DNA of 64,000 bases, from NCBI GenBank assembly GCA_032358165.1, contig JAALGY010000001.1, forward strand, positions 1,550,001 through 1,614,000, written 5' to 3'. Positions 2,199-42,100 of this stretch are shown here, piece after piece (the first letter of the stretch is position 1; every line of letters starts with the position of its first letter). The position numbers were made by a program, and so were the translations under genes. The notes beneath the pieces were generated by a model. The model worked only from the letters and a program-made list of their open reading frames with translations, did no database searches and was not told where the DNA came from. Source of the DNA: Diplosphaera chodatii (lineage: Eukaryota > Chlorophyta > Trebouxiophyceae > Prasiolales > Stichococcaceae).

Positions 2199-4896
2199 CG
2201 TCCCTCGGGCGGCGTGGCCCACGCCTCCCACTGCCGCTCCTCCGCCGTCTTGCGCTTGTGGCCGCCGCCGCCGCCGCCGCCGGGGCTGCCCTCCGGCGTA
2301 ACCGCCAGCAGCTGCTTCTTGGCTGTCGCGCCACAGACAGCAGCATCAAGTCATGGCAAGTCATGGTCTGTCTCATAGGTGGACCATCATGGAGGAAGAC
2401 GCTCAGTGGAGCATGCAGAGGACAGCAGCAGCCTGCTGGAACTGCTGCCAGCCAATGTACACCTGCTGTCAGGAGAGTGCAACTCTATTGGCAAACATGT
2501 CAGGAAACACAAGAAGGTGCGCACGCTGAAAGGCGAGCGCCTCCTCAGCCATGAGCGCATCCAGCGTGGCGGGGCTGGCCGGCTTGGACTTGGGCACCTG
2601 CCGCAGCACAGCTGTTACATCAGGCAACACACGCTGACGAGCGGGCGCATTGGGCGATGCTGTACAGACGACAGATGCAGCACGGCGCCTCAAGGACGCC
2701 GTCCGCATCATGCTAGCACGCTGAGATTGGCAGTGCGGCACAGAACGCAGCTGCTGACAATGGATGGAGGCACATGTGCAGCGGGAGCAGCGGGGCTGAC
2801 CTCGGCTGGGGCTGTTGCATCTGACGCTGGGTGCTGTGCTCGGCTTGAGCGCCCACCGCGGCCGCGGCCAGCGACCGCCGGGCCGGGTATGCGTGAGCTG
2901 CCGCTGCTTGCTGGACGGCTTGCTGCTGCCACTGCTGTGGCCGGTGTGCAGAGGCTGCCATCGGGTTTCGTGCCTCTGCCCGCCGCGGCGCTGCCGGGGC
3001 GCTGCCGACTGGGCACGGGTCTGGTGCGGGCCGCCGCTGCCGGTGGAACTGGCTGCCTCGCTGGGGTGGACCCGCTGCCGTCGAAACCCTGCGGCGGTCG
3101 AAGCTGCCTGGCACCCACCGCCACAGCTGCGGGCCGCATCGCAGGTCTCCCTGCTTTGGCTGCTGATGCTGCTGCGGACCGGCTGGTGGGGGGCACGGCC
3201 TTGGGCGCCGCTGGCGCCGGTCTGGGGATGCGCGAGACCCGGCCCTGGAGCGATGGCAAAGCAGCTGAGCCTGCCCCCGCACACGCTGCTGCACCCCGAA
3301 GGCTGGAGCTTGCTGCAGCCGCAGGGTTTGCTGTGGGCCTGTGTTGGTGTGGCGGCGTGTGTGGGCCGCTGCTGCTTGTGTTGGCCAACTGCCGCGTGGC
3401 GTCCCGCAAACATGACGCCGGCTGCGCGGCCGGCTGCTGCTTCACAGCCCGCCTCACTGTTCCCGGGCCACGCATCGGCGTGCTGCTGGCGGTAGGGCTC
3501 TGCCCGGGACGCATTGCAGTGACTGCCGGTTCTGAGGTGTGGCCCGCACTCCGCGGCTGGGTCTTGGGACCTCCAGCTGCTGCTGAAAGTGGCGCCCTGC
3601 CTGCTGGCAACCGCTGAGGCGTGGTTCCACCAGCTCCTGCTGGGGCACGACTCGCCAGCAGTTGCTGTATGTGAGATGTGGTGTGCAGCAGGGATGTTGT
3701 CATGTCATTATGCATCGAGAGGTGCAAAGCCGCGGCATCTGTCAGCTCACCCGCCAGCCGGTGCTGCGGGCTGCTGCGGGGAGGCAGCGCCCCTGACGCC
3801 GCTGCTGCACTGGGCGGCTGCGGGGGAGGTGAGCCGAGGGCCGCCAGCTCAGCGCCGCTCAGCAGCCCGGGGCTGAGGCGCGCCTCCGTGTCGAAGTGCG
3901 CACCGGTGGCGATGCTGGCCCGCAGCGATGCCGTCTGCAGGCTCCATGATGCATCTGTTTTCCTTCTGGCCACCTGACCGTGCGCACTGTGCAACCTTTG
4001 GCAGACATTGCTGGCTCTCGCAGTCACACGCTGCATGTGTCTGTGTCACGAACGCCTGCAGCTGAGTTGTTGGTGCTGCTGTGCATGAGTCCTGCCAAAC
4101 GCAGCAAAGCGAGCGTGAAAAGCCAGGACGATGTCTGAAACTGGCTAGCCTGGGCAGGGCTTGGGGTCCAGGGGGATGCGCCACCGCGGCTGTGTGGGCG
4201 GGAGGCCTGCCGCGGCACCGTGGAGCGGCTGCCGGTGCTGCGGGGTGGGACGACGCCGGGCGCCGGCTGCGCGTGCGGCGGCGTGCACAGTGCTGCCAGC
4301 TCCACCGAGTCCAGCAGCCCCGGGCTCCGCCCCACCTATCGATACGTTGACAGCGTTGTGAATACAGCAAGAATTCCGGAAGCTGAGCTTGCTTATAAGA
4401 TGCGAGCTGCAATGGCCGTCGGTCAGGAGTGCAGCAAGTGACGCCGTTGTGTAGACGGCATGCATGTAGAGCGGACAGAGATGCACACCTCGGCATCGAC
4501 ATGGCGGCCCGCAGCGACGCTGGCCTGCATGGCCGCCAGCGCCGGGCTGCGGTGCGCCGGGGTGGCCGCTGCCGGTGCATTAGGCGAGTCCGGTGGCGAC
4601 GCGCAGCGCTTTGGCGGCGGCAGTGGAAGTGGCGATAGCGATGTGGGGCCGCCATCAGCTGGCTCCTCTTCGTGCAGGGTCTGCAACACCTTCGACGCCG
4701 AAAGGGATTGCCTTTTAGGGCGGGGCCCGCCGGCCCCCTTCACTGGAGACAGCGCAGCGCGCACTTTGCTGGCGGCAGCTGCTCCCAAGATGGATGGCGA
4801 CAGCAGGTCATCGCTTTCGTCCAGTAGCGAGAGGTCCGAGCGGCTGGTGCGCAGGGCTGCCAGCGGCGGCGACTCAGGCAGCTGCACCTCGATCAT
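2195..4896 (-). CDS. Low-complexity Ser/Pro/Ala-rich protein with a duplicated ~50-residue block
   Basis: Function not recognised. The first exon starts at the ATG at 4896 (MIEVQLPESPPLAALRTSRS) and ends near 4490 with ...GRHVDAE. The next, about 4340-4150, reads GRSPGLLDSVELAALCTPP. After an intron, a long exon runs from about 3940 towards 2760. Its start, ASIATGAHFDTEARLSPGLL then ELAALGSPP, repeats the block made by the end of exon 1 plus exon 2 (ASVAAGRHVDAE / GRSPGLLDSVELAAL). The rest is Pro/Ala/Ser/Arg-rich and probably disordered. A later piece contains PATLDALMAEEALAFQ. The terminal exon ends in a poly-Gly run and HKRKTAEERQWEAWATPPEG followed by TAG. Splice sites between about 2780 and 2330 were not resolved. 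The basic tail could suggest a nuclear or cytoskeletal scaffold, but that is a guess. Confidence 0.5.
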
Positions 4897-5849
4897 GGCG
4901 CCTGCGCATAAGTACTGATTGCTTCAACATGAAGCCTGGAGCATGCATACAACGGTGACGCAGATGCTTTTTGAGAAACTTGCTTGCGGTACGCAAATAT
5001 GCATACCTGCGCGGCTGCGGTGTGTCTTACTGTATTAGTACCAGCCGCAAAGGCGCAATCACGTCCTTGTCTATATACAGTGCTGTGGAGGTGCGTGAGA
5101 GCAGCAGGGCATGCTGCTGTGACTCTTCAGCTGTCAATTCATGCTGCAAACCGAATCAGTCTCATGGATCTGCTCTGCTGTAAAGCTCGTCATGTCGTCA
5201 AACGCAGCTGTCGCCTCAGCTGTTTGGAGGGCGGACAGCGTGTCATTACGTAACGAGCTGGCAGCGTGTAGACCTGCTCCGTCTTCGCTCACGTGCGCGC
5301 TTCCACATATAGAAGAAAGGGCAGCTGAAGCAGTTTTGCAGCTGCGTGTGGGATTGAGCGGCTCTGACACGCTGCAAGGTGGACAGTTGCGCACGTGCAC
5401 ATGCAGGCATGCTGCTGTGGCAGCAGTTCATACGTGTTGACACACCATCTCTGTCATGCCTGACTGTCATAGCAGCGCCACGAAGCCCGCCTTGCAGCCG
5501 GTATCGGCAGCAGCATGTCACGCACTGTGACTGCATGGCCACCACCGCCACTGGCAAGCAGACTTCTCAGCGGCCTGCTGCGCCAGCAGGCGCTGTAGCT
5601 GCCGAGAAAAGCCTTTCCGTCCTTCAAGATGCTGAGGGCCTCGCTGCTCTCCCTGTCGGTATGCCAGAGGCAACGCAGCAAACGGCGGCGAGTGTCGCGT
5701 CGGCATGGTGCATCCCGCCGAAGAAGTGGGCCGGTCACCCAACCCTGCTGAGTGGGTGAGCGAGACCAGAGACGTGGCAGATGGTTCGCTGCTCGACGTC
5801 TGCCGCGACACACAGACACACACACTTGCTTGCTGCATCGGGTGCAAAC
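4897..5849. other. Probable divergent promoter region, no firm gene
   Basis: This lies between the start of the minus-strand low-complexity gene and the start of mnmA. Weak candidate exons exist on the minus strand near 5150-5290 (LRNDTLSALQTAEATAAFDD) and on the plus strand near 5540-5700, but none has a clear partner exon, so none is annotated. Untranslated first exons of either neighbour could be here. Confidence 0.4.
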
Positions 5850-8394
5850 ATGCCCTTGTACAACGCCCTAGCCGTATCGCCACTGTCGCACAGGTGTGAA
5901 CCGGATGCAGCGCCGCTGCGTGTGGCTGTGCTGCTCAGCGGCGGCGTCGACAGCAGCGTCGCCCTGCGCCTGGCCCAGGTGCCCGACGATGTGCTGTGCG
6001 CCATTCAGTACCGGGAACGCAGGCATGCGTCCTCTTTGCGCTGCCGCTTTACACGGCACGTCGCCCGAGGTGTTGCTGCAAGGTTGTGCCGCACCAGAGG
6101 ACACAAAGGCCGACGTGTCGTGCGTTCCCCAGGCGGCGGGGCACCGGGTGACGGCGTTCTACCTGCAGATCTGGTTCCAGGACGACTTCCGCAACTTCTG
6201 GGAGGCGTGCCCCTGGGAGGAGGACCTGTCCTACTGCCGCCAGGTCAGCGCTACACCCTGTTTTGGTCCCAACACCTGGCGTGACAGTACATAAGGTGTG
6301 ACATGCCGGCGCAGAGGTGCAGGATGAGGTGGGCAATGGACTCACCGGACGCTTGTGAACCGCTGCCTCCCGTCTGCAGGTGTGCGAGCAGGCGGGGGTG
6401 CCGCTGCAGGTGGTGCCGCTGACGGAGGCCTACTGGGAGCGCGTCGTGGCGCACTCCATCGCCGAGATCAAGGCCGGCCGCACGCCCAACCCCGACATCA
6501 TGTGCAACTCCAGGTGCGGCAGCTGTACTCATAACAGCTAACTCATGGCGTTGGTCATAATTGACAGGAGGAAGTACAATCGGCATGCAGTGGCAAAGGG
6601 CAGTCTGCACACGGACCCTCAGAGCACATGTAGCTGAGCAGTGCCATCAGTCTGCGATTTGCAGAGCTGGATGCCGATGTCAAATCAGCACCCCCATGGC
6701 AGGGTCAAGTTTGGCGCCTTTCTGGAGCATCTGGAGAGCGCACATGCTGGGCACTTCGACCGCGTGGCGTCGGGACACTACGCGGGCGTCACGCGGGACT
6801 CTGGAAGTGCTGCGGCCACGCTGCGCACGACGGCGGATGCGGTGAAGGACCAGACCTACTTCCTGGCCCACCTCAGCCAGGTGAGTAACGCTTGCAACTA
6901 GCCGTCATTGATGGAAAGCGCAGCAGTTCAGACAGCAGCTTCGTGCTGGAAAGCAGCACTGGGTGTGCAGGCGGGCACAGCCCTGTGTGCTGCCCCCAAT
7001 GCACGTGGTCACAGCGCTGCGAACTCAATTTTTGTGGACAATCTGCAGGCGCAGCTGGCGCGGGTGATGTTCCCGCTGGCGCCGATGACCAAGGGCGGGG
7101 TGCGGGCGCTGGCGGCCGCCGCGCAGCTGCCCAACCGCGCCCGCCGCGACTCCCAGGGCATCTGCTTCCTCGGCAAGGTGTAACAAGAAACCCTAACACC
7201 ATGAACCCTGATTCCATCTGTGTATCTGTTTATGTTGGTGGTTGTTGGTGTCCTGTGTGGACATACAGTTGAATGTCGCACGCCGGCAAGGAGCGAGTTC
7301 TGTCTGAGCTGATGTCCAGCCCTGTTGATTGTGTCGCCGCCCGGGCGCAGGTGCACCACTCAGAGTTCGTGCGGGAGCACCTCGGGGAGTGGCCCGGTCC
7401 CCTCGTCGACGAGGACACCGGCCAGGTCCTGGGCTACCACCAGGGTGAGCGCGCACGCTTTGTGATATGCTCCGAAACCTGAAGCAGGCTCTTGCTGCGC
7501 CGCAGGCTCAGCTGGGCATCGAGGACATCATGTCAACAGTGGCCCTTGTCATCGGCCTTGTCTAGGGATAAGCCGGCTAAACACATCCCGCTGCTCGAGC
7601 GTCTCAGGTAGCAAGCGCCAGCTCCAGGCAACATCTGTGCGCCTACGGCCAACCTGCTGACGTTGTCAGTGGCTCCTGGCGTGCAGGGTTCTGGTTCCAC
7701 ACCATCGGGCAGCGCAAGGGCGTACCGCTGTCGGGCGGCCCCTGGTACGTCGTGCGCAAGGACATCACGATGAACGCCGTGTACATTTCCCGCTCCTACC
7801 ATGCCAACGGCCACCGGCGCAATGGCTTCAGGTCAGGCCTTGCTATGCATCAATGCCTGCAAGGAGTTGGCAGGCATACTGGCAAGATCCAATCTCACCA
7901 TGCTGCCAGCAACCAACAGTGTGCATGACAGGCACCATACTATATAGCACACTGCCGTGAAAGCTGCCGCAGTAGCTCTTCAGCACTATCTGACAGTCAC
8001 GCTTCGTGGGCAAAGGTGTGGACCGTTCAACTGGTTGAGCGGGGAGCAGCCGGATGCCGCGCGGCTGAAGCGCTGCAAGGTGCGGCATGGCCCAGAGTCG
8101 TACGCCTGCCGCGTGTCCTTTCAAGCTGGCGGCAGCATCAGCAGCAGCAGCAATGGCAGGGCTGACATCACAAAAATAGACGGCAGCAGCAGCGTTGACA
8201 TCAGAAGTACCCCTCGTCGTGGCGGCGGCGAGGCAGAAGGGCAGCACCGGCACAGCCCCCCTGCAGCGGCACTGGTGTGGCTCGATGGGCCGGACCAGGG
8301 TGTGGCGCCGGGGCAGTATGCGGTGTTCTACGATGGCAGCACCTGCCTGGGCTCTGCCGTCATTCAAGAACCGCTCAGCCTGCCTGATGGCTGA
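5850..8394 (+). CDS. mnmA: tRNA-specific 2-thiouridylase (MnmA/TrmU), plant organellar type
   Basis: MnmA activates U34 of Lys, Glu and Gln tRNAs with ATP and transfers sulfur to give 2-thiouridine; in plants and algae it is expected in chloroplast or mitochondrion. Eight exons are readable. Exon 1 (5850-5978) holds the PP-loop [12 protein letters not shown]. Exon 2 reads [20 protein letters not shown] and PWEEDL. Exon 3 has [11 protein letters not shown], whose Cys matches the first catalytic Cys. Later exons read [20 protein letters not shown], and [10 protein letters not shown] with the second catalytic Cys. [12 protein letters not shown] and GGPWYVV follow, then a final exon beginning FNWLSG and ending at a stop at 8394. 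All expected MnmA blocks are present in order. The ATG at 5850 is the nearest in-frame start to the PP-loop and leaves only about 25 residues ahead of it. A longer leader with a transit peptide could come from an upstream exon. Confidence 0.9.
7188..7196 (-). repeat. Telomere-like AAACCCTAA motif in an mnmA intron
   Basis: The motif lies about 10 bases after the donor that follows the exon ending GICFLGK (donor GT at 7178). It belongs to the group of intronic telomere-like motifs described in the findings. Confidence 0.6.
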
Positions 8395-8727
8395 TGTACA
8401 ATGCGGCAATGTTGCACCCAGCGTGCGGCGAGCAGTTCGAGCGTGGACGGCAGCATTTGTTGGTGGTTTTCTGCAGACTAGGGCGTCCCAGTACAGTGTC
8501 AACGGCCCACGATCGCCCTCTGTGATGCTAATCATCTGTCCCGTGCCTAAGTGCTGACACCTTGCACTTAGCACGTTGCAGGTGCATTGAGAGCTGACCA
8601 CTGCCACGGGCCAGAGTAAAGCTGCGCTGTACTTATGCCCTCTCAACAGTTCATATGCGGAAACGATTGCAGTCCTCACATCCAGCAGCACTACTGAAGC
8701 GAACCAACTGACTGAAGTGGGTGTACT
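8395..8727. other. Short convergent gap between mnmA and thiM
   Basis: About 330 bases separate the stop codons of two genes that face each other. It should hold both 3' untranslated regions. No gene or repeat was recognised in it. Confidence 0.5.
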
Positions 8728-10407
8728 TCACACAGCATCCTCCTTGATCCGTGCTTCACCATCTTCGAGCAACGATGTTTCCGTCTCTCTAGGCCCTGAG
8801 GCCAGCCAGTCGATCATGTGCGTCCTGCCCAGGTTGCACAGTGGAAAGATGTCGGAAGGGTGTCGGCATGATGGTGCAAATCTGAAAGGCCGTCAGATGA
8901 CAAGACCCACGTTGCAAACCATGCACAGGGTCACCTGAGAGAGCCAGGGGCGCCACCTGTTGTACTGTGAGCTGTGTAGAATGCTTCTGCAGACAGCCCT
9001 GCAATGATAGAATAGGAGTGGCATACGAGCGCAGAGCTCACAATCCGCCCTGGTGTGGGTCACCTGCCTCACTTTCAATGTACCCCCTCAAATTCCCAGC
9101 TGCAGATCATACATGGCAATGCGCACCATAGATGCAGAGGGCGTGCGCTGCCGCCATCAGCGGGTCTGGCGGGCCTGCTGCAAGGAACGCTGCCATCACC
9201 GCTGTGACTGTGCACCCCGTAGCGGTAATCTGCTGCATGCCAGGGTGCCCTGTAGACACTCTGACGACCCGCTGCCCGTCTGTCACCTGCGCATTGGTCA
9301 GCGTCCTTGTGCTAGACCCAGAGCAAGCCCGCATGATGCTTTCCCTGGACTCGCCACCTAGCATTGCACACAATGCATACGATGAAAGCCGGCATGTCCT
9401 TGCATAGTGAGGCCCACAGTCAATGTCACGCACCAGGTCGGTTGCGCCGCTGATGGCAACGATGCACTGCTGCTGCAGGGCGAGCTGCCTGCCGGCTTCC
9501 AGCGCCGCCTCCGAGCCGACCGTGCTGTCGGTGCCGCGGCCGCCGCCGCCCGCCGACCCGGCGACCGCCATGATCTCGGAGGCGTTGCCGCGTATGAGCG
9601 TCGGACGCTGCCCCAGCAGCTCCATCACTTTCTGCACGAGGCAGTCGAGCCCTTGGAAGTGATCATTGCGCACTGCAAGCCTATATCAGATGCCAGCTGC
9701 GCTGGGCTCCTTCCCTTGAATTCCCGACAGCCTGCCGACACTGCCAAGCTGGCGCACTGCGCAGCCGACCGACTACAGCAGGCTGTCACCTCGTGGTAAC
9801 TTTACCTGCATGCGGTACTTTGTGGCGCCGGCGGCCACCGGGTCCAGCACCCAGGGCTTGCCGGCCTCGTGGTACGCCCTGGTGGCCAGCAGCATCGCCT
9901 GGAACGTCGCAGCTGTGATGGTGCCCACGTTCACCAGCAGCACTGATGCCATGCCGGCGAACTCCACCACCTCCTCTGGTGCCAGCACCTGCCCGCAGCT
10001 GATCAAGAGCTTCAGGACCGTTCCCAACCAATGATGTTTCCACCGCCTACCGTCTCAATGTCCGACCAATTCAAGCGTGCACCACTGCACGACGTCAGCG
10101 CTGCGTGTTGGAAAGTGTTGGCTCAATGCACCCTTTCACTACTTCGAAGCTGCTCACCATCGCAGGGGAGGCACCTACTGCCAGCAGCGTGTTGGCCATG
10201 ATCTGCATGTGCAACACGCATCTGATCAAGCCCGCCGTCTGCTCGAGACGCAGGTTCAGACCAGCTCAGCAGACGAGCAGCTGTGTAGGAACATGCAGCA
10301 CTGCAGCTGAGCCTCACATCCATGGACACTTGGTTGGTGATGCAGTGCACCAGCGGGTGCGTCCGCCTCACTCGCTCCCACGCCGACTGGAGGCTTGCAG
10401 TGGGCAT
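8728..10407 (-). CDS. thiM: Hydroxyethylthiazole kinase (ThiM)
   Basis: ThiM phosphorylates salvaged 4-methyl-5-(2-hydroxyethyl)thiazole (HET) to HET-P, a substrate of thiamine phosphate synthase. The first exon reads PLVHCITNQVSMD. It joins in frame to MANTLLAVGASPAM, the conserved N-terminal family block. The next exon, about 10000-9813, reads SVLLVNVGTIT, KPWVLDPVAAGATKYR. Then come PTLIRGNASEIMAVAGS and CIVAISGATDL. The ATP-site block is VTDGQRVVRV, GMQQITATGCTVTAVMAAF, with the usual GTGC seen here as ATGC. Small last exons read LSAEAFYTAHSTT, GGAPGSLR and THMIDWLAS, matching the family's G-P-G-S-F plus LLD ending, and stop at 8728. The ATG at 10407 is the conservative start; the frame stays open upstream, so a longer N-terminus is possible. 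It is divergent from the four-domain thiamine gene. Confidence 0.9.
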
Positions 10408-10974
10408 GACTGCCAGTATGTGCCTGGTAGCACAGGCGAATATCCGTGAACGCATTCCAACGTGAAACTCAGCATTAAGCAGAGGCGCATGCTCAAGCGC
10501 CATCCCCCACCATGCAGTGCATCGATAAATGTTGCGGTGATATGCATCGAACTTCACGTTGATGCATCTTTCATGTCAGAGCTGTACACACATGAGCCTT
10601 GCTGGCAGCGTAGCGTGCTGGATAGTGGGTTGCACCTTAACGGGTGACCACTGTGTACTGCTTATCGCGGTCGACAGGCGTGTTGGGCAGCTTCACACAA
10701 TCAACGAGCTAAGCTGTTCGCTTGCACGTATCAATTGCCGCTATATCGATCAAAGCCCCAGACATGCGAGCTTCTGCACCTGCTTCGCAATGCGACAAAA
10801 TGCGCACGTGCGAGCTCCGGAAGCACTCATGCAGTCAGACCCTTGCAGCACGTTGCTCGAAAGTCTCTAGCAGGTGCTGACGTCCTTTCGATCGTGTCGG
10901 CCTACAGGCGCTGCATCGAGGGCAGGCTGTCGAATGTGTGCCAAGCGGCAAATCTGCATTAGCATCAGCAAAGC
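10408..10974. promoter_or_regulatory. Divergent intergenic region between thiM and the four-domain thiamine gene
   Basis: About 570 bases lie between the two start codons, which point away from each other, so this region should hold both promoters and 5' leaders. I looked for the conserved CTGAGA and GAACCTGA elements of a TPP riboswitch and did not see them paired. No clear TATA arrangement was assigned. Shared regulation by thiamine status is an inference from the layout. Confidence 0.5.
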
Positions 10975-13900
10975 ATGAGCGAGAGGAGCAGCCTAGAAGA
11001 GGCAGCTGCGGGGATCGAAGCGGGGGCTCCGACGCGGGAGGGCATCTCGAGGCAGCTGTGGCAGGACGCGCAGCCGGAGATCCAGAGCTGCCTGCACCAC
11101 CCGTTTGTGCGCGCGCTCGCCGCCGGCACACTGCCAAAGTGCGATCTGTTGACGCTGACGCATCTTGGAGACCCGTCCACATGTGCCAATGGCTCGCAGC
11201 ATCAACACAGCCGGATGCTGTGTCTGTGCAGCATTTGCTGCATGTCTGTTGACAGCATTGACATGTTGAAGCGTCCGACCGTCACCTTCCGTACATGCTT
11301 TACTATATTGTTGCCGCACTTCACAGGAGGACGTTCCAAGCGTACATCGCGCAGGACAGCCACTTCCTGACCGCCTTCGCCAAGGCCTACACCGCAGCGC
11401 TGCCGAAAGCCGCAACAGCTTCGCCGGTGCGTCATGCAGTCAGTCTGCGTCGCCACTCTGTCAGCGTCAGCGCGCTGCTGCCTTTGGTCCGCAACAGCCA
11501 GCGTGCTGCACAGAATGTGTGGACGGCTGCACGGCCTGACGCACGGCTGTGTCGTGCGGCATCCCACCTGCATATTATGATATACAGTATGATTGTTCAT
11601 GTTGCAGGCGGTGTTTGCGGCGGTGCGGGAGCTGCTGGACGGCGTGCACGAGGAGCTCGGCCTGCACGTCTTCTACGCCCAGGTGACCGCAAGGGGTATA
11701 GAGAGGTTTATACCCCTTGGGTGACCGCCCGCCGCGCGCACTCTGCGCGAGGCCAGGCCGCCTGTCTGGACGCACGGCCGAAGTGCCACAGGGTGCAAGG
11801 TTTCACCGTTGTGAGATAGATTTATCACAGGAATTACTTCCTAAGGTCGCGAGTGTATGTTCGTGTATTTGTTTTTGTCGGGGGTGCGTCCAACGGGATC
11901 ATGACAGCAGCCAGAGGCGCCGGGAAGCAAGAAGATCAGGTGTGAGCGTGAGAGCCGCTGGTCGGCAGGAGTGGGGTGTGGATCTGGACCAGCTGAACGG
12001 GCGGCCGAACGCGACCACCGCGGCATACACCAAGTTCCTGCTGCGCCTGGCGGAGGGCCCCCAGGTGTGCCTTTTCTGCCTTTTCTGCCCTTTTCTGCCT
12101 TTTCTGGACGGCATGTATTGCTCAGCCCCTGCAGACGTGCTATCAGACATCAGTTGAGTTGTACTGCAGCCGGCAGGCCAGGCAAAGCCCAATCAATCGC
12201 ACCACATGGACGAGTGACCACGGATGATGCTTGCATGCACAGAGTGTGCGCAGAGCGCGGGCATGTGTGGATGTGTGTGGGGGCATCTTTGGTCAGATCT
12301 TGCGTGCGAGTGTGAGCATGCGGTGTGCAGAGCCTGGTGCACGTGCTGGCCGCCATGGCGCCCTGCACCCGGCTGTACGGCTTCCTGGGCTGCCAGCTGG
12401 CGCGCTCGCAGCGGCTGACAGGTCAGGCGCCGTCAGCTGCCGTGCCGCTCAGGGGCTGCTCGTCGACCTGACAGGGCATTGGGCAGCCAGCGATGGCCAC
12501 CTATGCCAACGGCGCAGGGCTACTTTACACCCATGTTGTATACATGTGGACGGTTGGGGTATCCCACTTTCCCACGAGGCTAGTCTATTAGAGACGCATA
12601 AGACATGACACTGCCTGCAGGCGGCAAGCCGCACCCCTACTCGCATTGGATCCGCACCTACTCCGCGCCGGCGTACCTGCGCATGCCGGCCGTCAAGGAG
12701 CGCATCATCGACCAGCTGGGCGCGGATGTGCCCTACGGTGGGGCTCACCTGCTTCAGTGACTCAGTCGTCCACCGTGAAGGAGGGTGTTGCTTGAGAGGC
12801 TACCGAGGGGTGGGCCTTCAGGCAGCTCAGCCGCAGTGCAAGGGATGGCGAGCACGATGGTGGGAGCCTGATCACCTGGCTCACGCCGTATCGAGTTCGT
12901 CGCCAACAGAGGAGAAGCCTCCCACGCTAGGCACGATGGGCTCTGGTGTGCCCCACCAGCCCTACAAGAGTCACTGCAGAGCCTGCGCACATGGTCGCCC
13001 GTCCTGCTGGCAGGCTCGCTGCGGGGCCTGTACTGCACGGCAATGCGCTTCGAAGCGGCCTTCTTCAGCGAGCAGCCCGAGCTGCCACCGCTGCCCCGCG
13101 TCGCGCTGCTGGCCGTGGACTTCGACGAGACCTGCACCGCCGGCGACACCATCGGCACAATCATCAACGCCGCCATCGAGGCGGCTGTGCAGCGCAGCGG
13201 CGGTGAGCTTCCAAATTGCGTTTGAGGTGGTGCTGCACTCTGCAACACGACAGCAGACTGCAGCAGCACATGCGCCGTTACAGCTGCATGGGGCTCGTGT
13301 TGCGACCGGGTCGTGTGCAGTCAACGCCTGCGACTGCTGTGTGGCAATGGCCTATTGAAGTGCAAAGGCTGTAGGGGTCACAGTTTTCGCGATGCTGATC
13401 ATCTACGCCCTTGCCGTCATGTCCCTGCAGGCGATGCCAGAGTCCGGGAGGACCTGGTCGCGAAACGCGACGCGCTGGTCGCAAACTACGGCGAGCGGCG
13501 CGACGCCCTGCTGGCCGACCTGCTGCCCGAGGCGAGCGCCCCAAACCCTGCCCTCCTCTGTTTCTCATGTGCATTGCCGTGGTGGCAGAGGCGTGCAGAC
13601 GCGGCGCCTGATCTGGTCCCCGGGAGGTCTCTGGTTGAAGCTTTCAAGTGGTGTGGTTGCACCATGCGCTCTCATGTGTGGTGCCGCGACTGGCTGCAGG
13701 GCCTGCCGCCGCCGGAGGGCTACAACGAGGAGTGGCTGGCGGGCTTCGTGGAGCGGCTGTCCGCCTTCGACCGCGACATGAACGCCGTGGTGCGGAACAG
13801 CCGCATCCTGGCCGGCATCCCGCCGCCGGCCCTTGCACCCCAGGTGCCTCCACTGCACGTGGTCAATTTGATTGACCAATAGACTGCTTCTGATGTCTTC

Positions 13901-16900
13901 TGGTGGTGCATTGTGCCGTGGTGGGTTCCTCGATGTGTCGATGATATACAGGGTACTTGACCAGCACCCACAGGAGGGTGTTGACCCCAGAAAGGGCAGA
14001 TCCGGTTGCCAACCTGCAGCACAGGCGGCCAGGCCGCCAGCACCGCTCTGGCGCCTGGGGGTGCTGCTGCAAGGATGCAGCAGACGATGCATCTGTACAT
14101 CACACAGCCCCGATGGACTGCTTGATCGAACACTGCGCAGGCCGGGCAGTGGAGCTGCAGGGGGGGTGCCGGGAGGTGCTGCTGCGCGCCGCGCAGGCGG
14201 GCGCCTCGACGCACGTGGTGTCCGTCAACTGGTCGTCCGCGCTGCTGCGGGCCGCGCTGGCGCAGCGCTCGACAGAGCCGCCGCCGCCGCCGCAGGAAAG
14301 CCAGGCGGCGGCGTCAGGCGCGGCAGCGGCGGCGGCTGGGGCGGCGCCCGGGGACTACCAGAGCCGCGGCGGCGTGGGTCTTGGAACTGACCCGGGCAGC
14401 GGCGATGGGGGGATAGAGGAGCAGCTGGGGGCGGGGGCGGGGCTGTCGGAGGAAGACAAGGAGGCGCCCGTGTCGGAAACAGCCGCCGCATACCAGGTAT
14501 TCGCCGTCAACAAATTGGCAATGCTGCGACTTCCGAACCTTGACACTGTGATCTGCGCATCCGCATTTCGTAAGCCCGGCTGTCAGGCTAGCCAAACTGC
14601 CAGCTCACTGACGAAACGGGCCAACTGTGGTTTCTGCAGGCCAGGGCTGCAGGCGCATTTGGCAGCGGCAGCGGCGAGGCGCTGACCGGCTCGCCAGCCG
14701 ACATTGGCGATGGCCTACAGGTCGGGGCTGCAGGCTGTGAGCCCTGAGAGCAGTCTTGTTATGGTCTGCTTGCCAGCCTGCTCCGCTGCACTGCACGAGC
14801 CAGGCATGTGGTGTCCCCATGTGCTGCCACTGCATCCTGACATGCACCCAAATTGGTTGCAGGTGACGATACATGCCAACGACCTGGAAGTGGGCCCCGA
14901 GGGCCTGACCACAGGCGACATTGTGCGGTGCGAGTGTGCTTCCTGTGGCCCTGTTCTACATACAATTTCCCTCGTCGGCAACCATGCCTGGACTGCTGTT
15001 TGCTTGAGTGGGCTGTGCAGCCTGGTCTGCGCATGTGCTCGACACCGTTTGTGATAGGTTGGCGGTCAGCTTCTGGTCTGCTTGCAGGAGGGTGGAGTGC
15101 GGGACGGACAAGGGCGCCATTTTTGAGAGCGTCCTGCTGGACCTGGCCTCCGAGGTGGGCTCACCACGCAGATGGCTGCTATTCCAGACCGACAGATGAG
15201 CCCTGGCCATCCCTGGACCCCGCCCTGCACTGCCTGTGCTGCTGGCATCATGGCGGGCGCGTCGGCGCACAAGTTCAATAAAGTTTGCATGGCTGACTGC
15301 TGTCCTGTGTCGCCATCAGCACGGCGCACTGGAGGGGCTGTCTGTGTACGTCGGTGACTCACCGTCCGACCTGGCGCCGCTGACGGCCGCTGACGTGGGC
15401 ATCATCATCGGTGCTAACCCGCTGCTGCGCACGGTCGCAGCAGCGGCAGGCCTCGACATACACCCCCTGGTGGCAGGTGAGCTGGTCAGCATTCTGGTGG
15501 TGACGCACTGCGGGTGCCTGCAGTCTGCCTCCGAAAACTGTAGCTGGGGCTCGGGTGGACACCTGCGAATCTCGGCCACATTGCCGTTGTTGTGTCGTGC
15601 AGCGCCAATGGGCAGGCCACATGCAGCGGGCGTGCTGTACGAAGCGGTGGGCTGGCACGAGATTGGCGCCTTTCTGTTTGGGCCCCCGTCGGACGGCGCG
15701 CCGCTGCCGCCGCCTGCCAACACTGTCAAGGTGCTCGAATCCTTCTTCAGCAGACAAAACCCTATCATTGGTCACGACCCGCATGCGATGCCTGGTGAAC
15801 ATGCTTGGGAGCTGTTGTGCACTGGGACTGCGCTGACTGGTGGGCGGAACTGGTGGTCTGCCTGTCCATGACTGTGCATGGATGACACAAGCGCTGCACA
15901 TGCCTGCTGCTCACACAGGCACCCTCCTTGGGTGTGCACATCTGACGTAATATTCCTGTCAATTTGTTGGTTGGAAGTAGCAACCTGTCATGCCATTGCA
16001 GGTGCCGAGGGTGCTGATAGTTGCGGGGTCTGACTCCGGAGGTGGGGCGGGCATCCAGGTGGGCTGTCTGCTGCTGCTGCTCCTGCAGGGCATCGAACCT
16101 GAAACTTGGTGGCTGTGTTTGTCTCTGGCTGCAGCGCACCTGTACGTTGGCAGCATGCAGTACGCAGCTCGCTTGGCTACAGCTGGAGAGTCTCCACATG
16201 ACTGCAGGCGGACCTGAAGACGTGCGCAGCATTGGGCGTGTACGGCGCGACCGCCATCACGGCGCTGACGGCGCAAAACACGCACGGCGTCGGTGACGTG
16301 CACGTCCCGCCGGTGAGCTGGGGAGTCCTACTGTTCCTGTGAGGTCGTGTTGTGAATGAGATGCAGAAGTTCGTATCACTGTCCGGCTGTGCATACATGG
16401 AGGGTGCCCTTATGCCAGGCAGCTGTGTGCTCCTCGGTTGGTCCAGCAACACTCGGATTCCACACAAGCCTATTGCAAATGCGCTGATAATACGCAGGGA
16501 TGTGGGCAGCGTTGGCACCAGCAACTGGCACCATCTGCATTGCGGGCCCGTGCAACGGGCCTTGTGCACAGACAGCCGTGCCCGAGCGCAGCGATTGTTT
16601 TGTCACAGGTGGAGAGCGTGAAAGCGCAGCTGGACGCGGTGCTGCTGGACATAGGCGCCGATGTGGTCAAGACCGGCATGCTGCCCCGCCCCGAGGTGGG
16701 CCAACGTTTGTTGTAGTCCTGTTGCATGCAGCATGCACCTCTGCGCAGCTTTCCTCCAGCCTCTTCATCTGTGTGTGCTCTTTGCACTGATGCGCACTAC
16801 GCTTGATGGTGGGTGACGCTGCCAGCTGGCTATGGCTGTTGACTGCAAAGCATCAATAGTCGTTGCCACCTGCCGCAGCGGGCATGTCAGAAAATACGCG

Positions 16901-19900
16901 GCATATCTGCTCCGACCTGTGGCACGATGGCTGTATGCGGTGGACGTGCACGTGCAGATCGTGGAGGCGCTGGCAGCACGGCTTGAGGCGGCAGCAGGAA
17001 GCAGCGGCGCCAAAGCGCGCCCCCACCTGGTCGTCGACCCCGTGCTGGTCGCCACCAGTGGAGACGCGCTCACGGCGGGCGGCGTCATGGAGGCGCTGCG
17101 GCAGCACCTGCTTCCAGCCGCCACCATCGTGACGCCCAACGTGCCAGAGGCCTCCGCGCTGCTGGGTGAGCCTCCTTGTTGATTGACTTCAGTGTGTTGC
17201 ACAGTCGCACAGGCAACAGCCACAACACCCTCGGTGCGACTTACAGTCTGCTCAGCAGACGGCAAGGCTTTTCAAGAGCTGCAAGGTGTCGCTCTTGGCC
17301 TTGCTGTCTGCTGTGCATCTCGCATGCTCCGAGGGTTACGAACACTGCATGTGAGTACCTGGCTGCAGATGACGGGGCGCAACTGGCAGCAATATCTAGG
17401 GGATGCAAGATAGTACAGGGGTCAAGGACTGCAGGTTGTTTTCAGGCAGGTGAATCACCGTGCACGTGTGCGCAGATGGGAGGGCCATCCGCGACCTGCA
17501 AGACATGAAGGAGGCCGCCGCAGCGCTGCATGCCCTCGGGCCACAGTGGGTGCTGGTCAAGGTGACGCGTTCAAGGACCGGTTGACTTGTGTGACCGCAT
17601 CAAAGCGCAGCATTGCGACAGTTCCCAGCACTTGGCTGCTGCCCACCAACCAGGGCGTGAACCACCATGCGATGTGCAGGGCCGAAGCACACGTGCAAGG
17701 GTTTTGAATGCGTGCGCACAATCGTGCTGCAGGGTGGTCACCTGGTGTCCAGCGATGGCGGCGCCGACGGCGGCTTTGCCACCGCCACGGATGTGCTTTA
17801 CGACGGCACCACCATGGCGGTCCTGGAGGAGGACGCCGTCATGTGCGCATTTCCCTTCACTCACGCCATGCGTGTCAAGGGTTTAGGGTCTCCATTGGCA
17901 CCCCTCCCTCACATGCTCACCCTCCCACAGGTCCTGCTGGCCTGCTGCAGTTGTGACTCGTGCATGCCGTGGCCAAACCTGGTCACATCGACACCATGTT
18001 TGCGCTGCCCTGCGCAAGTCACGGTCGTACGTGGAGGTCGGCTGTGTTTGCTGCCGGATGGTCACAGTGCTGCGGCTGATCATAGCAGATCCTGGCCCTG
18101 GCCACTTGCACTGGTGGCCGCTGTCCTCTGTGTTCGAGCATTGCAAGTAAGGGAGCACGACTTAGGTGCACTGCTGGCACTCTGCAGGACGGGCAACAGC
18201 CATGGCACAGGCTGCACGCTGGCGTCGGCCATCGCTGCAGGGCTCGCCAAGGGGCTGCTCGTACCTGACGCCGTTCGACAGGTCAAACCTCGTCCGGAAC
18301 TGGCTGAAGTGTAAAGCATTCTTTGTTAGCATGGCGGGTCAGATTTGCAAACCCCAGCTGCACCTCTGTGTGTGCTGTGCACGTCAGCTTGGTGCTCCAT
18401 ATGTGTCAGTGCAAAAGGGGGTTCTTTACAGGTGTCCCGCTGGTGGTGCTGCGGTGCGTCACCCACTGCTGGTGGCGTGGCCAGAAACAACTTCATACCA
18501 AGTTACGTTACTGCAGGCCAAAGCGTACCTGACAAGTGCGCTGCGAGCGTCGGTGCCACTGCGCATCGGCACCGGCCCCTCGAGGCCGCTGAACCACGCA
18601 TTCCAGACAGCAGACTGGGCGGCAGCGGGAAGCGGGAAGCAGCCGGACGGCCGCCGACTGGCGCCCTCGCAGCTGCAGCTGTACGCCGTGACTGACGCCG
18701 CCTGCGACGCTCGCCAGGCAAGGAGGGATACCAGACACAGTACTATAGGATCTCTCTCGCCTCCGCCATTTCACTTACTACCGTTGACTCTCTACGGAGA
18801 TGAGACACCTGGTGACCTTACTTATGGCAGAAATGGTTTGATACCCCTGGACTGCCAATCTCGAGGACATTTCTGCGCGTAGCAGCAGCTGCAGTCTTCG
18901 ACTTGATTGTAAACCCAGCTGGCGCCGCAGGGCTGCTGATTGTTGAAAGCAAGTCGAATTCAAATGGCACGTGCAGGGCCGCAGCACGCCGGAGGCGGTG
19001 CGGGATGCGCTGGCGGGGGGCGCGGGGGCAGTGCAGCTGCGGCTGAAGGATGCAGATGGCGGCGCCTGCCTGCAGCAGGTGTGCTCCAATCCGGGCTGGC
19101 ACCCCCATGCCTGAGTGACAATCGGCCGCACCGGGCATAGCCAATCTGGGCATTGCTTGCTTGCATGGGTTTTCAGGTGTTGAAACGTCTGCAAACAGAT
19201 AGTTTTGAGCCACCTCAAGAGCAGACCCTTTGCCTACACTACCGACGCGGGACTGCTTACATGTGTTCTACGGCTGCTACAGTAGTCCTGCAGTGTCAAG
19301 TAGACACCCGCAAGACACCCCACAAGACAGTCTCAAGACACTGCTCAAGACGACAGGCCTGACGAGCTGCTCACGAGGCTGCGGCCTCGCCACGGCACAA
19401 CAAAGTTACCGTCGAACAGCTTGACTTGTGCTGCATAATTTTGCAGGCTCGGCTGCTGGTGGCGGCGTGCCGGGAGGCCGGTGCGCTGTCCTTCATCAAT
19501 GACCGGGTGGATGTCGCGCTGGCTGCCGATGCCGATGGCGCGCACGTCGGACAGGTACCATCCATGTCGACTAGCACAATAAATGCTCACTCAGTGTCCC
19601 TGGGGGTCAACGTTTGCTGCTCTCGGATGTCCTAAGCTGGGCTTCATCCGCACATGAGGCCAATGCAAGCAAGGTGACAATGCAGCCAGGTGCCCATCAT
19701 CCGTATCAATCATTGCCGCCAGCGATCAAATGCAGCGCATGCAGGATTGCACACCTGCTGATCGCAGGACGACCTGCCGGCTGCGGAGGCGAGGGCGCTG
19801 CTGGGGCCGCGCCGCATGCTGGGCGTCTCCGTGAAGACGCCGGAGCAGGCGGTCGCGGCGGCCGCCGCCGGGGCCGACTACCTGGGTGCCGGGGCAGGTG

Positions 19901-20973
19901 CCGGGCTTCGTGGCGGAGCACTTGACCGGCGATCTCATGCGTGCCCGTTTGCTGACCAAAACATGCGCCTTTCTGTTCGGATGCCACTGGGGCAGGCACT
20001 CCTGTGCAGCTCATTGTGGCCATGCACAGCGTGCCACCGGTGAGTGTCTGGAACGTGGTGACCACTGCGCAGGTTGCTGTGTGTGCTCGCTTCATATGCT
20101 GAAGTGGACGTCCTGCCTGCGGTGCAGTGTTCCCCACCAGCACAAAGCAGACGGAGACCATCAGCCTGGAGACGCTGGGGGAGATCTGCCGCGCAGTGAC
20201 GATTCCCATCGTCGCCATTGGCGGCATCACCGCCGCCAACGCAGGCGAGCAATGCTGGGAGCAAAAGCCCTCTGATACTCTGATACTGCTTCCTTGACTT
20301 GATCTGGAACCGTATTGTATTATTGTATCCGGTTGCTGAAGGCAACACAGACGGTTGCCACCGACTTGACAAGACATCCAAAATACATCACCACTGTATG
20401 CAAGCTGCTTCACACACCTGCTGTGCTCCTGTGCTGGCTGCAGGGCAGACGATTGAGGCCGGCTGCGCGGGCGTGGCTGTGGTGTCCGCACTGTTTGACA
20501 CGCGCGACATCAGGGCCTCCGCACACGAGATCCTGTCGGTGCGTGAGCTTGTGCCTGTCCATGTTTCAGCAACCCACCGGGAACCCCTTGACGTGTTCTT
20601 CTTGGCCTTCTCTATCATGGCACCTGCCATGCTGCAGCCTGCATGTGGTGTCGACACGACACATAAGGAGCAACACAGCAACACTGCTTTCAAAATGCTT
20701 GTAGGGTGTGTTAAATGTTCAACCTGTAAGTGGAGTGTCGATGTCCAGGTCGTTCAAGACAGCACGGAGCAGCGGCGAGCCGAGAACGAGGGGACCATGC
20801 TGTGCAGCACACCCAGCGGCGAGCCCCGCAGCCCGCTGGCCGACTCGATCGCTGCTTTCGCAGCGCAGCAGCCGCAGCAGCGGCAGGGCGGGGCGGCAGC
20901 GCCTGGTCAGCCACCGGCGCAGCCTGGCACGCGGCCTGAAGAGGCCATGCAGCCGCTTCGGGCAACCGGCTGA
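10975..20973 (+). CDS. Four-domain thiamine enzyme: TenA - HAD TMP phosphatase - ThiD kinase - ThiE synthase (TH2-TH1 fusion)
   Basis: About 28 exons read as one protein of roughly 1,200 residues. Residues ~1-260 are TenA (exon 1 to ~13110): [77 protein letters not shown]. Residues ~262-640 are a HAD phosphatase: [12 protein letters not shown] with the Asp nucleophile, [27 protein letters not shown]. This order matches plant TH2. Residues ~641-890 are Thi[77 protein letters not shown]. ThiE follows: [74 protein letters not shown], a Gln/Pro-rich tail and a stop at 20973. The HAD part ends PPPANTVK at a donor, and the next recognised exon begins VPRVLIVAG in phase, with no stop or new ATG needed. 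The chief alternative is two genes split near 15730-16002. No transit peptide is obvious after the ATG at 10975. Confidence 0.85.
11682..11728. repeat. Tiny hairpin insertion flanked by 9-base direct repeats at an intron donor
   Basis: GGTGACCGC occurs at 11682-11690 and again at 11720-11728. Between them lie a perfect 10-base inverted repeat (AAGGGGTATA at 11691-11700 and TATACCCCTT at 11709-11718) and an 8-base loop. The first GGTGACCGC contains the donor GT of the third thiamine-gene exon. Confidence 0.75.
12069..12107 (+). repeat. Short pyrimidine tandem repeat (CCTTTTCTG unit)
   Basis: Four near-identical copies of a 9-10 base CCTTTTCTG unit directly follow the donor of the TenA exon ending LLRLAEGPQ. 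It is intronic and probably expanded by slippage. Confidence 0.7.
17879..17888 (+). repeat. Telomere-like GGGTTTAGGG motif in a ThiD-region intron
   Basis: It lies about 40 bases after the donor of the exon carrying [13 protein letters not shown] in the four-domain thiamine gene. Confidence 0.6.
19296..19355 (+). repeat. Degenerate CAAGACA repeat in a ThiE-region intron
   Basis: Several imperfect CAAGACA/CAAGACC-type units lie close together between the exons ending GGACLQQ and starting [12 protein letters not shown]. No coding meaning is seen. Confidence 0.5.
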
Positions 20974-22306
20974 CTGGCCATTGTGCCTAGCGGCGCCGGG
21001 CACGATGCGGTAGCAGGCTAGCAGTGGCAGTAGGTAGCCTGAGGAGTGATGGCTTGTGACCATCATGTGCAGAAGCTGCATCGCATCAGCAGACAGCAGG
21101 TGGCTGGCACATGGCAGTGAGGCATCATCGTGGCAGATATTCTGCATGTATGAGTCCTTCTGTACAATGCCAGTTTGGAGGGTTTGGGCACCATTGGCAG
21201 GGTGTCATACCTATCCGTAGTCATACATGTTAGCCCGCGCCAATGACAGCAGCGGTTTCACCAGGCGCTTGGCAGGCAAATGTCACATTGATGCAGGTTG
21301 CCGTCATGTGTCAAGTCATACTACTACAGGAAGCATCCGTTGGTCGACCAATCTCCGTGGGACTGTCAGCTCTCAATGGCCTGCAAGCTGGGGTGATCGG
21401 ATGCAGGAGCCTTGCAGTAGGACGTCAAGCTAAACAGGCTGCAACGGTCACGTGCTCGTGCCTGAGAGATGCCACTCCTCTCAGCATGTCGTCTGTTTCG
21501 CAATGTACACCAGTGTCGCTACGTTGCAACCATTGCATCGCACGCCGTTGATCAGTGCATTTCTGTCTGGGACCCTTACGTCAAAGCACTTGGCCAGAAG
21601 GGTGCATGATCCCTGAGGCTCCTGCCAAGTTGATCCCAAGCTGTAGCACTGCAACGACCTCGTCAGCAGGTGATCCAGGTCTGTGATGCATATGTCATAC
21701 AGCGTTGCACCACCGCGCACGGGTGCGCGATGCATGTGCAGCAATTTCTGCAGACACCCCATGCTTGTGCCTTGGCAGTTCCACCACAGCATCAGGGGTA
21801 CCGGTACTTGCTGACATCGCTCCCCCCACACGGCTTCTGGAGTGTGGGTTTGGATCGCAGCATCAACAGCATTTGCCATCATAACGTATGCCAACACCAC
21901 TTCCAGCGTTGTACTGCAGGGTCAGCACCCAACATCGCCGCGCACAACCAGGCAAGCCGGCGCCTTGACACCTCTGGCCACGGAACCCGGGGCAAGCATT
22001 GCACACGTACAGGGCGGCGGTCACTGCGTGTAGCCATCGCCGGGGGCGACGGCAGCGGCGGCCACGGCGGGCGCTGCGCCGCAAGATCGGCGCAGCGGCA
22101 GCCCAGCATGTCCGCCCAGCAGCAGCGGCAGCAGCAGCAGCGCCGGCAGCACTGGCAGCAGGGACTGGAGTGCGACCACCTGCACCAGCGGCACTGGCAA
22201 CAAAGGCAGCAGTGGCAGCAGCGGTGTCAGCGACACACGGGTTCCGCTGCAGGCAGCCGGGCAGGGGGCGCGAGGTGGTGCGCCTTTGGCAGCCAGCCCT
22301 GCAGCC
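20974..22306. other. Gap between two plus-strand genes, ending in CAG-rich sequence
   Basis: No gene is supported from 20974 to about 22000. From about 22080 the sequence becomes rich in CAG/CGG triplets, readable as Gln- or Ala-runs in different frames. This could be the 5' leader or an upstream coding exon of the carrier gene. Confidence 0.4.
22108..22250 (+). repeat. CAG/CGG triplet-rich low-complexity tract
   Basis: Many imperfect CAG and CGG triplets give poly-Gln, poly-Ser or poly-Ala depending on frame. The tract lies just upstream of the first in-frame ATG of the carrier gene. Confidence 0.6.
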
Positions 22307-39187: not shown

Positions 39188-42100
39188 TCATGTGTGACCC
39201 CTATCAATGGACTGCGAACGGCGTCTGGCCTCAAACTCCTGCATCGCCGTCACCTTCGTCGGCGAGTTGGGCACGCTGGGGTCTGATGACCGCTCGTCCA
39301 TGCCTGCGAGACACGACCGTAGTTTGCTGTGCCGTTCACCTTCACCCAAGAACCTGTTCAGGACGTCACGAGCAACATGGCATGGCAGGAGAGTACAGCG
39401 CCAACACGGCGCCTGTGCTGCAATCGGCACATGACCGCTGCAAACACGTCTCTGGAGGCTGTGCACATGCACATGCTGCTGGGTCCCTGAGGGACACGCA
39501 CTGTGGCGGGCCTCCATGAGGGGCGAGATGCGGTGCACGCCGCGCCCCTTGGAGGGCTCGATGGGCAGCTCCGGGTACATGCGCTTGCCTGCAACGGGGC
39601 CGGCCGCCGTCAACCCCTGCTTTCTGTCTCACCAACCAGTGGAGGCGGCCAGCATTGCGGCAGCACGAACGACTGGGGCACTGGATGATAATGCGCCACG
39701 GTTGTGCAACCGTTGCAGCAGGCAGCTGGAAGTACATGCAAAGGCAGTCGCTGCCGCTTGCCACCTGTAACATACGCAGCAACCCTGCATCCCCCACATT
39801 CAGCAGCAGGCCCCGTCACCATGCTGGCTTACCTGGTGCGGCAGCATGCAGGGAGCCGTTGCCGTGCAGGCTGCCGCTGCCGCCGCGCAGCATGCCCGCC
39901 AGGTTGCCGCTGCTGCCCCGCGCTCCACGCCGCCCCGACGCCGAGGGATCCTTGTCGCTGCTGCGCGCAGGAACAGCTGGCAGATGCATACGAGGTGTTT
40001 GGTAGCGTCAGCACATGCTGCACATGAGCAGCTTGCATGGGCGCAGCCATGTCACGAAGAGGACTGCACTTGACACTGCGCAAATCCATGCTGTGCTAGC
40101 ATCCTGCCACAAGCAGAGGTTGGGGTGCAGGTGCTGCACCTGCTGTAAGCGCTGCCTCCGTGCGCTGAGCGGTCTGCCAGGTTCCTGCCGATCGCCGACA
40201 TCAGCGCCCGAGGGCCGCTGCTGCGCCGCTGCAGGTTCGCCATCGACTGGCTGGGCTTCATGCCCCTGCACCCGATCCCCACAGCACTCTTGCACACGGC
40301 AAAGGGCATGACGCATGGCGCGTGCCTGGCTGCTCGTGGCTTTGAGAGTGCTTGGACGGCCGACTGGTGCACCTCGAATCTATGTGGCACGGTGCACATG
40401 GCGACCGCAAGCTGTCGCCTCAACGATGCAAACGGCGCAGCAGCATGGCACTTGCAGTGCATCTGAGTTATGTGTGTCCTGCTTCCAATCTGGGAGCCTT
40501 GATCTACGGCAGCTGCCAGAACAGCATCAGCGCACCCGTGGTAGCTGCCCTCCAGCTCCACGTCCGACAGCATCACCGCGGAGCCCGACTTGCGCAGGCT
40601 CTTCTTGCGCAGGCGGTGCGTGCTGTCGTCGCCGCTGCCCGCGCTGCTGCCCGCGTAGAAGGCGCGCCCGCCGTGCGTGCTGGCGTACGGCCGGTAGTGC
40701 ACGCTGATGTCCTCCTCAGGGTTGGTGTGGCCGCCGCGGTCGTGCACCCTGGCAGCGTTGGCGGCGGTGGCCTTCAGGGTCATGCGCTCCACCCGTGTGA
40801 TGCCACGGCCGCTGGGGTCGTTCCTGTAGCCCTTGGTGCGCTCCTGCTGCAGGCGGTTTTTCGAGAAGCCGTCCGCCGCCCGCTGCCGCTTGTCACCGGG
40901 CTTCAGCGCGGCGCTGACCCGATCCACAGCCACCACCCCTGCAGCAGGGCACTCAGCGTCTCACAGACAACTCGACGTTGTATATGTCAAGCATGCTTGT
41001 CCTGTGCACGTGGAAGAAGCTGTCGCGCCGCACAGACGCGCTGCTTGGGCACCCACTGCAGATGTGTGGCACGGACCATGCAGATGCCTGCCTGTCGCTT
41101 TGGCAATGTTCTGTGGACCTCAGGCCAGGCCAGCAAGTAGGTGAACCGTGTATGATGCACATGCACACGGACGGGAGGCCTGTATGCTGTTGCATGTCAA
41201 CAGCAAGGGTGTGGAATCAGTGGTTCAGGGTTTAGGTCACCGTGCGCCAGGTTGCGCAGCCGCCGGAGTGCGGCCACGTTGGCTGCGCCGTGCGCCACGC
41301 CGTCCGACAGCAGCCGCGGCGCAGCGCCCCCCTGGGTCGCCACCCAGTCGTGCCTCAGCACCTGCAGGGGCCAGTCACCTGATCCCAGAGGTCCTCTGCC
41401 ACGTGTCAGCTCCGCACATGCCCACCGTGTGCACTCGCAAACACTGCAAACACGGCCACATCGGCGTGTGCACGCAGACGCTGGGTATGCGCAGTGAGAT
41501 GATTGTACCTGGTGTGCATTGAGGCGGTGCTTGGTGTTGTAGGCCAGCATGCCCATGAGCAGGTCCTTGGCCGCTGGTGACAGCGCATGCCACCTGGCAG
41601 CATGGGGGTGTGCATGTGCTCAGTGGACGTATGCGCATCGTCAGTCGCTTGAGCACCCACGATCCATCGCCAATCGGCATGGCAGCTGGACATGGGCGAT
41701 CTTGATCAGCACATCTGGGAGTGCACCTTGCATCCTTCAACCCCGGGGCGTCCTTGATGTCCATCTCGCAGTACTTCAGATTCTCCGAGTCCTACAGGGG
41801 TATGCAGATGGAACTTTGAAAGCTCGGATATCCGCGATGTACAGTATTAGAGGGCGCAGGATGTGCCAGAAGCGTATCGCATGGCAGCCTGCATAGACGA
41901 GCATGGCCAAGAGCATGCATGATACGCATGCAGGCTGTGCCCACCTGGAAGGAGAAGGGCTTGCGGCCGACCAGCATCACGAACAACACCACCCCCAGGC
42001 TGAAGATGTCCATGGACGGCTCGTGCGGCGCGTCGTGCACCACCTCTGGCGACACGAAGCCCGGGGACCCCAGCGCACCTGCACAGCATCGGGATCGAGG

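Follow-up and report, generated by a model that had tools for sequence, protein, structure and literature searches.

A nuclear gene of Diplosphaera chodatii predicted to join TenA, HAD phosphatase, ThiD and ThiE domains in a single protein

The window analysed here, a stretch of 64,000 nucleotides from the Diplosphaera chodatii assembly (contig JAALGY010000001.1, positions 1,550,001 to 1,614,000), carries on its forward strand 29 exons between positions 10975 and 20973 that a hand-built splice model joins into one frame of 1,211 residues, from an ATG at 10975 to a stop codon ending at 20973. The introns comprise 25 of the GT-AG and three of the GC-AG type, the latter following exons 8, 23 and 27. 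An earlier version of the model, with 28 exons and 1,281 residues, is the same as the final one up to residue 1137; it read through positions 20539-20748, which were recognised as the last intron by comparison with a second copy of the gene on contig C51 of the same assembly. Head to head with this gene on the reverse strand lies a gene for hydroxyethylthiazole kinase, ThiM (8934-10407; Pfam PF02110, E = 4.6e-71), whose exons were joined by eye and whose 3' end is modelled in part. The divergent start codons, that of ThiM being chosen by eye, are separated by 567 bases (10408-10974). Inspection by eye also placed the C-terminus of a tRNA 2-thiouridylase-like (MnmA) protein at about 7000-8400 of the window (+ strand), tail to tail with ThiM.

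Within the predicted protein, exons 1 to 7 (the last in part; 10975-13096) encode a TenA domain with Cys157 in an APC motif and Glu228 in FEAAFF, and the remainder of exon 7 through exon 15 (13097-15730) encodes a HAD phosphatase domain with the motifs DFDET, VVSVNW, TDKG and GDSPSD. Across an intron of 271 nt (15731-16001), which we call the joint intron, exons 16-22 (16002-18281) continue with most of a ThiD (HMP/HMP-P kinase) domain containing the motif HGTGC, and exons 23-28 (18517-20538) with the end of ThiD, a linker and a ThiE (TMP synthase) domain. Exon 29 (20749-20973) supplies a C-terminal tail and the stop codon, and both its frame and its stop are kept in C51. The window protein shows motifs for each of the four enzymes.

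The family matches were obtained in a Pfam scan of the 1,281-residue version of the model for TenA, ThiD and ThiE. In the second half, ThiD (residues 648-907, PF08543, E = 9.1e-84) and ThiE (residues 941-1122, PF02581, E = 1.9e-58) both lie above their curated NCBIfam cut-offs, with 285.8 bits against 204.95 for TIGR00097 and 186.8 bits against 145.1 for TIGR00693, in the ThiD-ThiE order of TH1. TenA matches PF03070 over residues 29-232 (E = 2.1e-27) and TIGR04306 with E = 4.5e-26 and 91.8 bits, under the cut-off of 130. The cysteine of its APC motif, which we take to be the TenA active-site cysteine and the mark of the TenA_C subclass, aligns with the cysteine of bacterial TenA chains and is invariant in an alignment of five sequences. 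TenA is followed, as in TH2, by a HAD domain that carries the catalytic motifs and is weak in Pfam: against PF12710 the window protein gives E = 0.02 and 15.7 bits, short of the gathering cut-off of 27 bits. Five of the seven relatives scanned pass this cut-off (P0003, P0004, P0008, P0039 and P0098), the Coccomyxa protein P0004 with E = 2.4e-9, while P0002 falls under it and P0014 has no HAD match; in NCBIfam, P0004 and P0039 match HAD-IB with scores that do not reach the family cut-off. In an alignment of 36 relatives, hand-picked from the 96 listed, the catalytic HAD columns are invariant. The ThiE motif has the form QLRLK (window 18977-19078) in the window protein, the C51 copy, P0001, P0002 and P0096, where QLREK-like forms otherwise prevail.

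One part of the first half is less certain. For intron 9 (13844-14160) the in-frame model takes the acceptor at 14160, and because one base present in C51 is missing from the end of exon 9 in the window, the join between exons 9 and 10 is uncertain. The missing base, within 13830-14165, may reflect either an assembly error or a real shift. An AGxxVxLQxGC segment found in relatives is kept in C51 and lost from the window model in the same interval.

The preliminary description of this DNA had proposed that one reading frame of about 1,200 residues runs through all four enzymes, with the HAD half ending PPPANTVK at a donor at 15730 and the next exon beginning, phase-compatibly, at 16002. The splice model reproduces each of these features, including the motifs and the length: exon 15 ends in PPPANTVK at 15730, exon 16 starts at 16002, and the join between them is phase 0 (AAG|GTGCTC ... 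TTGCAG|GTG). Matrices built from the gene's other introns place the joint donor at rank 19 among 25 GT donors and the joint acceptor at rank 19 among 28, scores that do not stand outside those of the other introns; of the remaining sites within the gene, 20 of 573 GT and 15 of 555 AG dinucleotides score as high. The G+C content of the joint intron is 54%, compared with 57% for introns and 71% for exons. Without splicing, exon 15 would run into a TGA (15869-15871), and position 15990, ahead of exon 16, holds an ATG in frame, so the fusion depends on the removal of this intron. TGTAA serves as a polyadenylation signal; its absence from 15731-16001 was dropped as an argument, since none occurs within 1.5 kb after 20973 either.

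The copy on C51 (C51:493569-503303), found by a ThiE/ThiD family search of the alga's own genome, has an intact frame of 1,215 residues in which all 29 exons are recognisable at 78-99% identity. Between the copies, exon 15 is 90% and exon 16 91% identical, neither with gaps, whereas the joint intron, with both of its splice sites kept, shows 65% identity and 55 gap columns. Pairwise dN/dS between the copies is 0.163 overall, with 0.08 for TenA, 0.195 and 0.148 for the two parts of HAD, 0.097 for ThiD and 0.098 for ThiE, and higher values around the joint (0.253), in the tail (0.289) and in a low-complexity insert in HAD (0.658). As pairwise values these describe the two copies together rather than each singly, and on that footing they show that the coding sequence is constrained before as well as after the joint. 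Beyond the gene, pieces of C51:492501-509500 align collinearly with window 4811-21755 (69-97% identity), window 40001-42000 likewise matches C51, and ThiM matches stand beside the C51 copy as well, so that the head-to-head layout occurs in both.

We then compared domain order among relatives, taking 96 homologues listed from a whole-protein search in which the best 8,000 candidates were scored. A search for TenA, HAD, ThiD and ThiE in that order had been proposed in the preliminary description, and 28 of the 96 listed homologues have this arrangement, 18 of them with green-algal names or labels: Myrmecia, Coccomyxa, Apatococcus, Elliptochloris, Raphidocelis, Bryopsis, Ostreobium, Gonium, Chlamydomonas (two), Tetraselmis (a JGI label), Volvox (two), Scenedesmus, Pleodorina, Edaphochlamys, Sanguina and Haematococcus. 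Some of these 18 could owe their apparent arrangement to merged gene models. For three proteins, the source contigs hardly exceed the frame (by 550 bases for P0002, 313 for P0010 and 119 for P0051) and therefore leave little or no room for introns, so that the frame itself crosses the joint. P0039, from the source 'mmetsp' and labelled as a transcript, contains TenA, HAD and ThiD and ends before ThiE. Judged from these sequences, the fusion is widespread in green algae and not unique to D. chodatii.

Of the remaining listed homologues, two have TenA-HAD-ThiD, and 43 have HAD-ThiD-ThiE without TenA, which may reflect loss of TenA in some lines or gene models that were cut short. Some proteins of this last type, such as P0015, start at a methionine within the last TenA helix, and P0030 and P0032, both without a TenA match, adjoin the TenA-containing P0010 in a tree of 77 rows that was built by a quick method for placement and rooted for drawing only. 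In this tree the window and C51 proteins group with P0001 and P0002, amid what we take to be trebouxiophyte and ulvophyte names, the window protein having the longer branch of the two copies (0.071 versus 0.018 for C51). The counts vary with the setting, 28 of 96 listed becoming 30 of 98 in the tree set, in which a TenA match is also seen for P0012 and P0028. Land-plant TH2 was not among the matches either to the first half alone (seven matches) or to a profile of first halves (eight matches).

These comparisons bear directly on whether the two halves could belong to separate products. If they were two adjacent genes, with the stop at 15871 closing a TH2 and the ATG at 15990 opening a TH1, the stop in the unspliced frame and the in-frame ATG before exon 16 would both be accounted for, and C51 too has an in-frame ATG, six bases before exon 16. 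This ATG is not homologous to the one in the window, however, as the C51 counterpart of the ATG at 15990 is out of frame; furthermore, judged by eye in the alignment of the copies, the read-through tail past exon 15 is not kept in C51, where the stretch behaves as an intron, and the frames of P0002, P0010 and P0051 span the joint. A single bicistronic mRNA giving two proteins would be in keeping with the published account of polycistronic loci as widespread in green algae (PMC11291117, in the part available), yet the loci described there consist of two ORFs with their own stop and start codons and an inter-ORF stretch within one mRNA, whereas the splice model here gives one frame, and with 12 ATG triplets in the 1,911 nt of the first half, leaky scanning would be expected to fit poorly. 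Because the joint is conserved in C51, because constraint extends to both sides of it, and because relatives' frames run across it, we regard two genes as highly improbable and a bicistronic mRNA as having next to no likelihood.

A further arrangement, compatible with the fusion, would add an internal promoter or start within a genuinely fused gene and yield a short ThiD-ThiE protein besides the long one. In-frame ATGs just ahead of the acceptor in both copies speak for such a form and their non-homologous positions against it, and it appears improbable. The single frame, TenA-HAD-ThiD-ThiE, that the preliminary description put forward is thus upheld by the splice sites retained in C51, the low pairwise dN/dS on both sides and the same order in 28 of the 96 listed homologues, and we hold it very probable that a single protein, encoded by one nuclear green-algal gene, carries first the domains known from plant TH2 and then those of plant TH1, two enzymes that plants encode as separate proteins.

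The wider genome holds ThiC and Thi4, so that the precursors for de novo synthesis should be available. Outside the fusion and its C51 copy, ThiD-family matches on C19 and C25 resemble, by eye, another kinase; the stronger ThiE-family matches, paired on C36 and C8 (L004, L009), look TenI/ThiE-like (HIRKPGWSE..., ALGGI...; also by eye), and the search of the genome with these families gave two further weak matches, on C35 and C38. A separate TenA-like exon on C9 (L001; HDPNWQPALQHSFLQQCKDG...), which we assume is perhaps of the TenA_E type, was also seen, and C31 (L002) likewise matches the TenA family. Of two scans for a TPP riboswitch at the locus, including the 567 bases between the start codons, one gave no match and the other just one unrelated, sub-threshold match; a pair of TPP riboswitches lies far away, at C1:1387459-1387568 (L027 1501-1610) and C51:677676-677785, on contigs other than those with the top matches to ThiC and Thi4. 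The best matches to ThiC, Thi4, ThiM and the TPP riboswitch come in pairs across the assembly, and the contigs C1/C51, C26/C27, C10/C37, C19/C25 and C36/C8 are seen as pairs. Much of what was examined therefore seems to be present in two diverged versions within the assembly, as could result from hybrid origin, from an old duplication or from two strains assembled together. McRose et al. report that SSSF lies next to TH1 and THIM in Ostreococcus and one Micromonas (PMC4260697, in the part available), so the neighbourhood of ThiM and the fusion may be old.

With enzyme roles assigned by family and domain identity, the predicted protein would cover several consecutive steps of thiamin synthesis. 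TenA would recover HMP from pyrimidine breakdown products, and ThiD would phosphorylate HMP, or HMP-P made by ThiC, to HMP-PP. ThiE would then combine HMP-PP with HET-P, supplied by THI4 or, from salvaged thiazole, by the adjoining ThiM, to give TMP, from which the HAD domain would remove the phosphate to release thiamin; TMP made by the second half would be dephosphorylated by the first half of the same molecule or of another copy of the protein. Going by domain identity, and as the preliminary description proposed, intermediates may pass between the domains, and free thiamin may be the product. The main gain of the fusion is probably that these steps are present in equal amounts and in one compartment.

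As for which compartment this might be, in plants TH1 is described as plastidic and TH2 as cytosolic or mitochondrial (PMC8331165 and PMC7868968, in the parts available). The stretch ahead of TenA is 2-31 residues long with a net charge between -4 and +1 in 21 of the 32 proteins checked, and is 94 residues long with a charge of +9 in P0014 (Tetraselmis label) and 126 residues with +19 in P0039. Nine of the 32 were left out of this count, the TenA start pattern being missed in five and misplaced in four; among them, TenA matches begin late in P0018 (at 42), P0044 (at 68) and P0073 (at 67), which may carry N-terminal extensions. Going by composition alone, many of the fusion proteins seem to have no plastid transit peptide. 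Because the stretch is short and not basic in 21 of 32, assembly of thiamin outside the plastid is conceivable, and we suggest only tentatively that in most core green algae the route from pyrimidine to dephosphorylated thiamin lies on one protein outside this organelle. If so, there would be no need for TMP to move off the enzyme or out of its compartment. The gene fusion would tie the TMP phosphatase step to thiamin assembly, and the site at which green algae make thiamin becomes testable.

Public databases already contain the four-domain protein, for instance as 'thiamine phosphate synthase'. The fusion suggests that algal proteins annotated in this way, or as a two-enzyme TH1, often carry further enzymes, a point of consequence for surveys of vitamin B1 in which TH1, TenA and TMP phosphatase are each scored on their own. 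We found no published description of it among titles and the openings of abstracts, a scope outside which the key TH2 papers (Mimura et al. 2016, Hasnain et al. 2016) fall. Other papers on algal thiamin genes, in the portions available, describe TH1 as bifunctional or as a ThiD-ThiE fusion, or make no mention there of a four-domain fusion, and a survey of fusions, whose vitamin set is prokaryotic, gives TenA-HAD as unpublished in the part available (PMC4921024). Green-algal TH1, likewise, has been called plant-like and bifunctional (PMC4260697, in part); it corresponds to the second half of the present protein, in which TenA and HAD precede it. The first half shares its two domains and their order with plant TH2/PALE1, a TenA-HAD TMP phosphatase, and the likeness is one of domain order: rice TH2/PALE1 is described as a separate protein with a targeting peptide (PMC7868968, in part), whereas the algal protein continues into ThiD-ThiE. 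Bacterial ThiE-ThiD-TenA proteins (13 of the 96 listed homologues, some named Clavibacter or Microbacterium) likewise carry several thiamin enzymes per chain, but in another order and, unlike the algal fusion, with no HAD match. Yeast THI20 also joins ThiD and TenA, and its chain 3rm5 is matched by both halves of the fusion; we take it to have ThiD first and to be without ThiE and HAD. Finally, one listed homologue, P0074, with 1,416 residues, has the order HAD-ThiD-ThiE-TenA, placing TenA at the opposite end of the protein.
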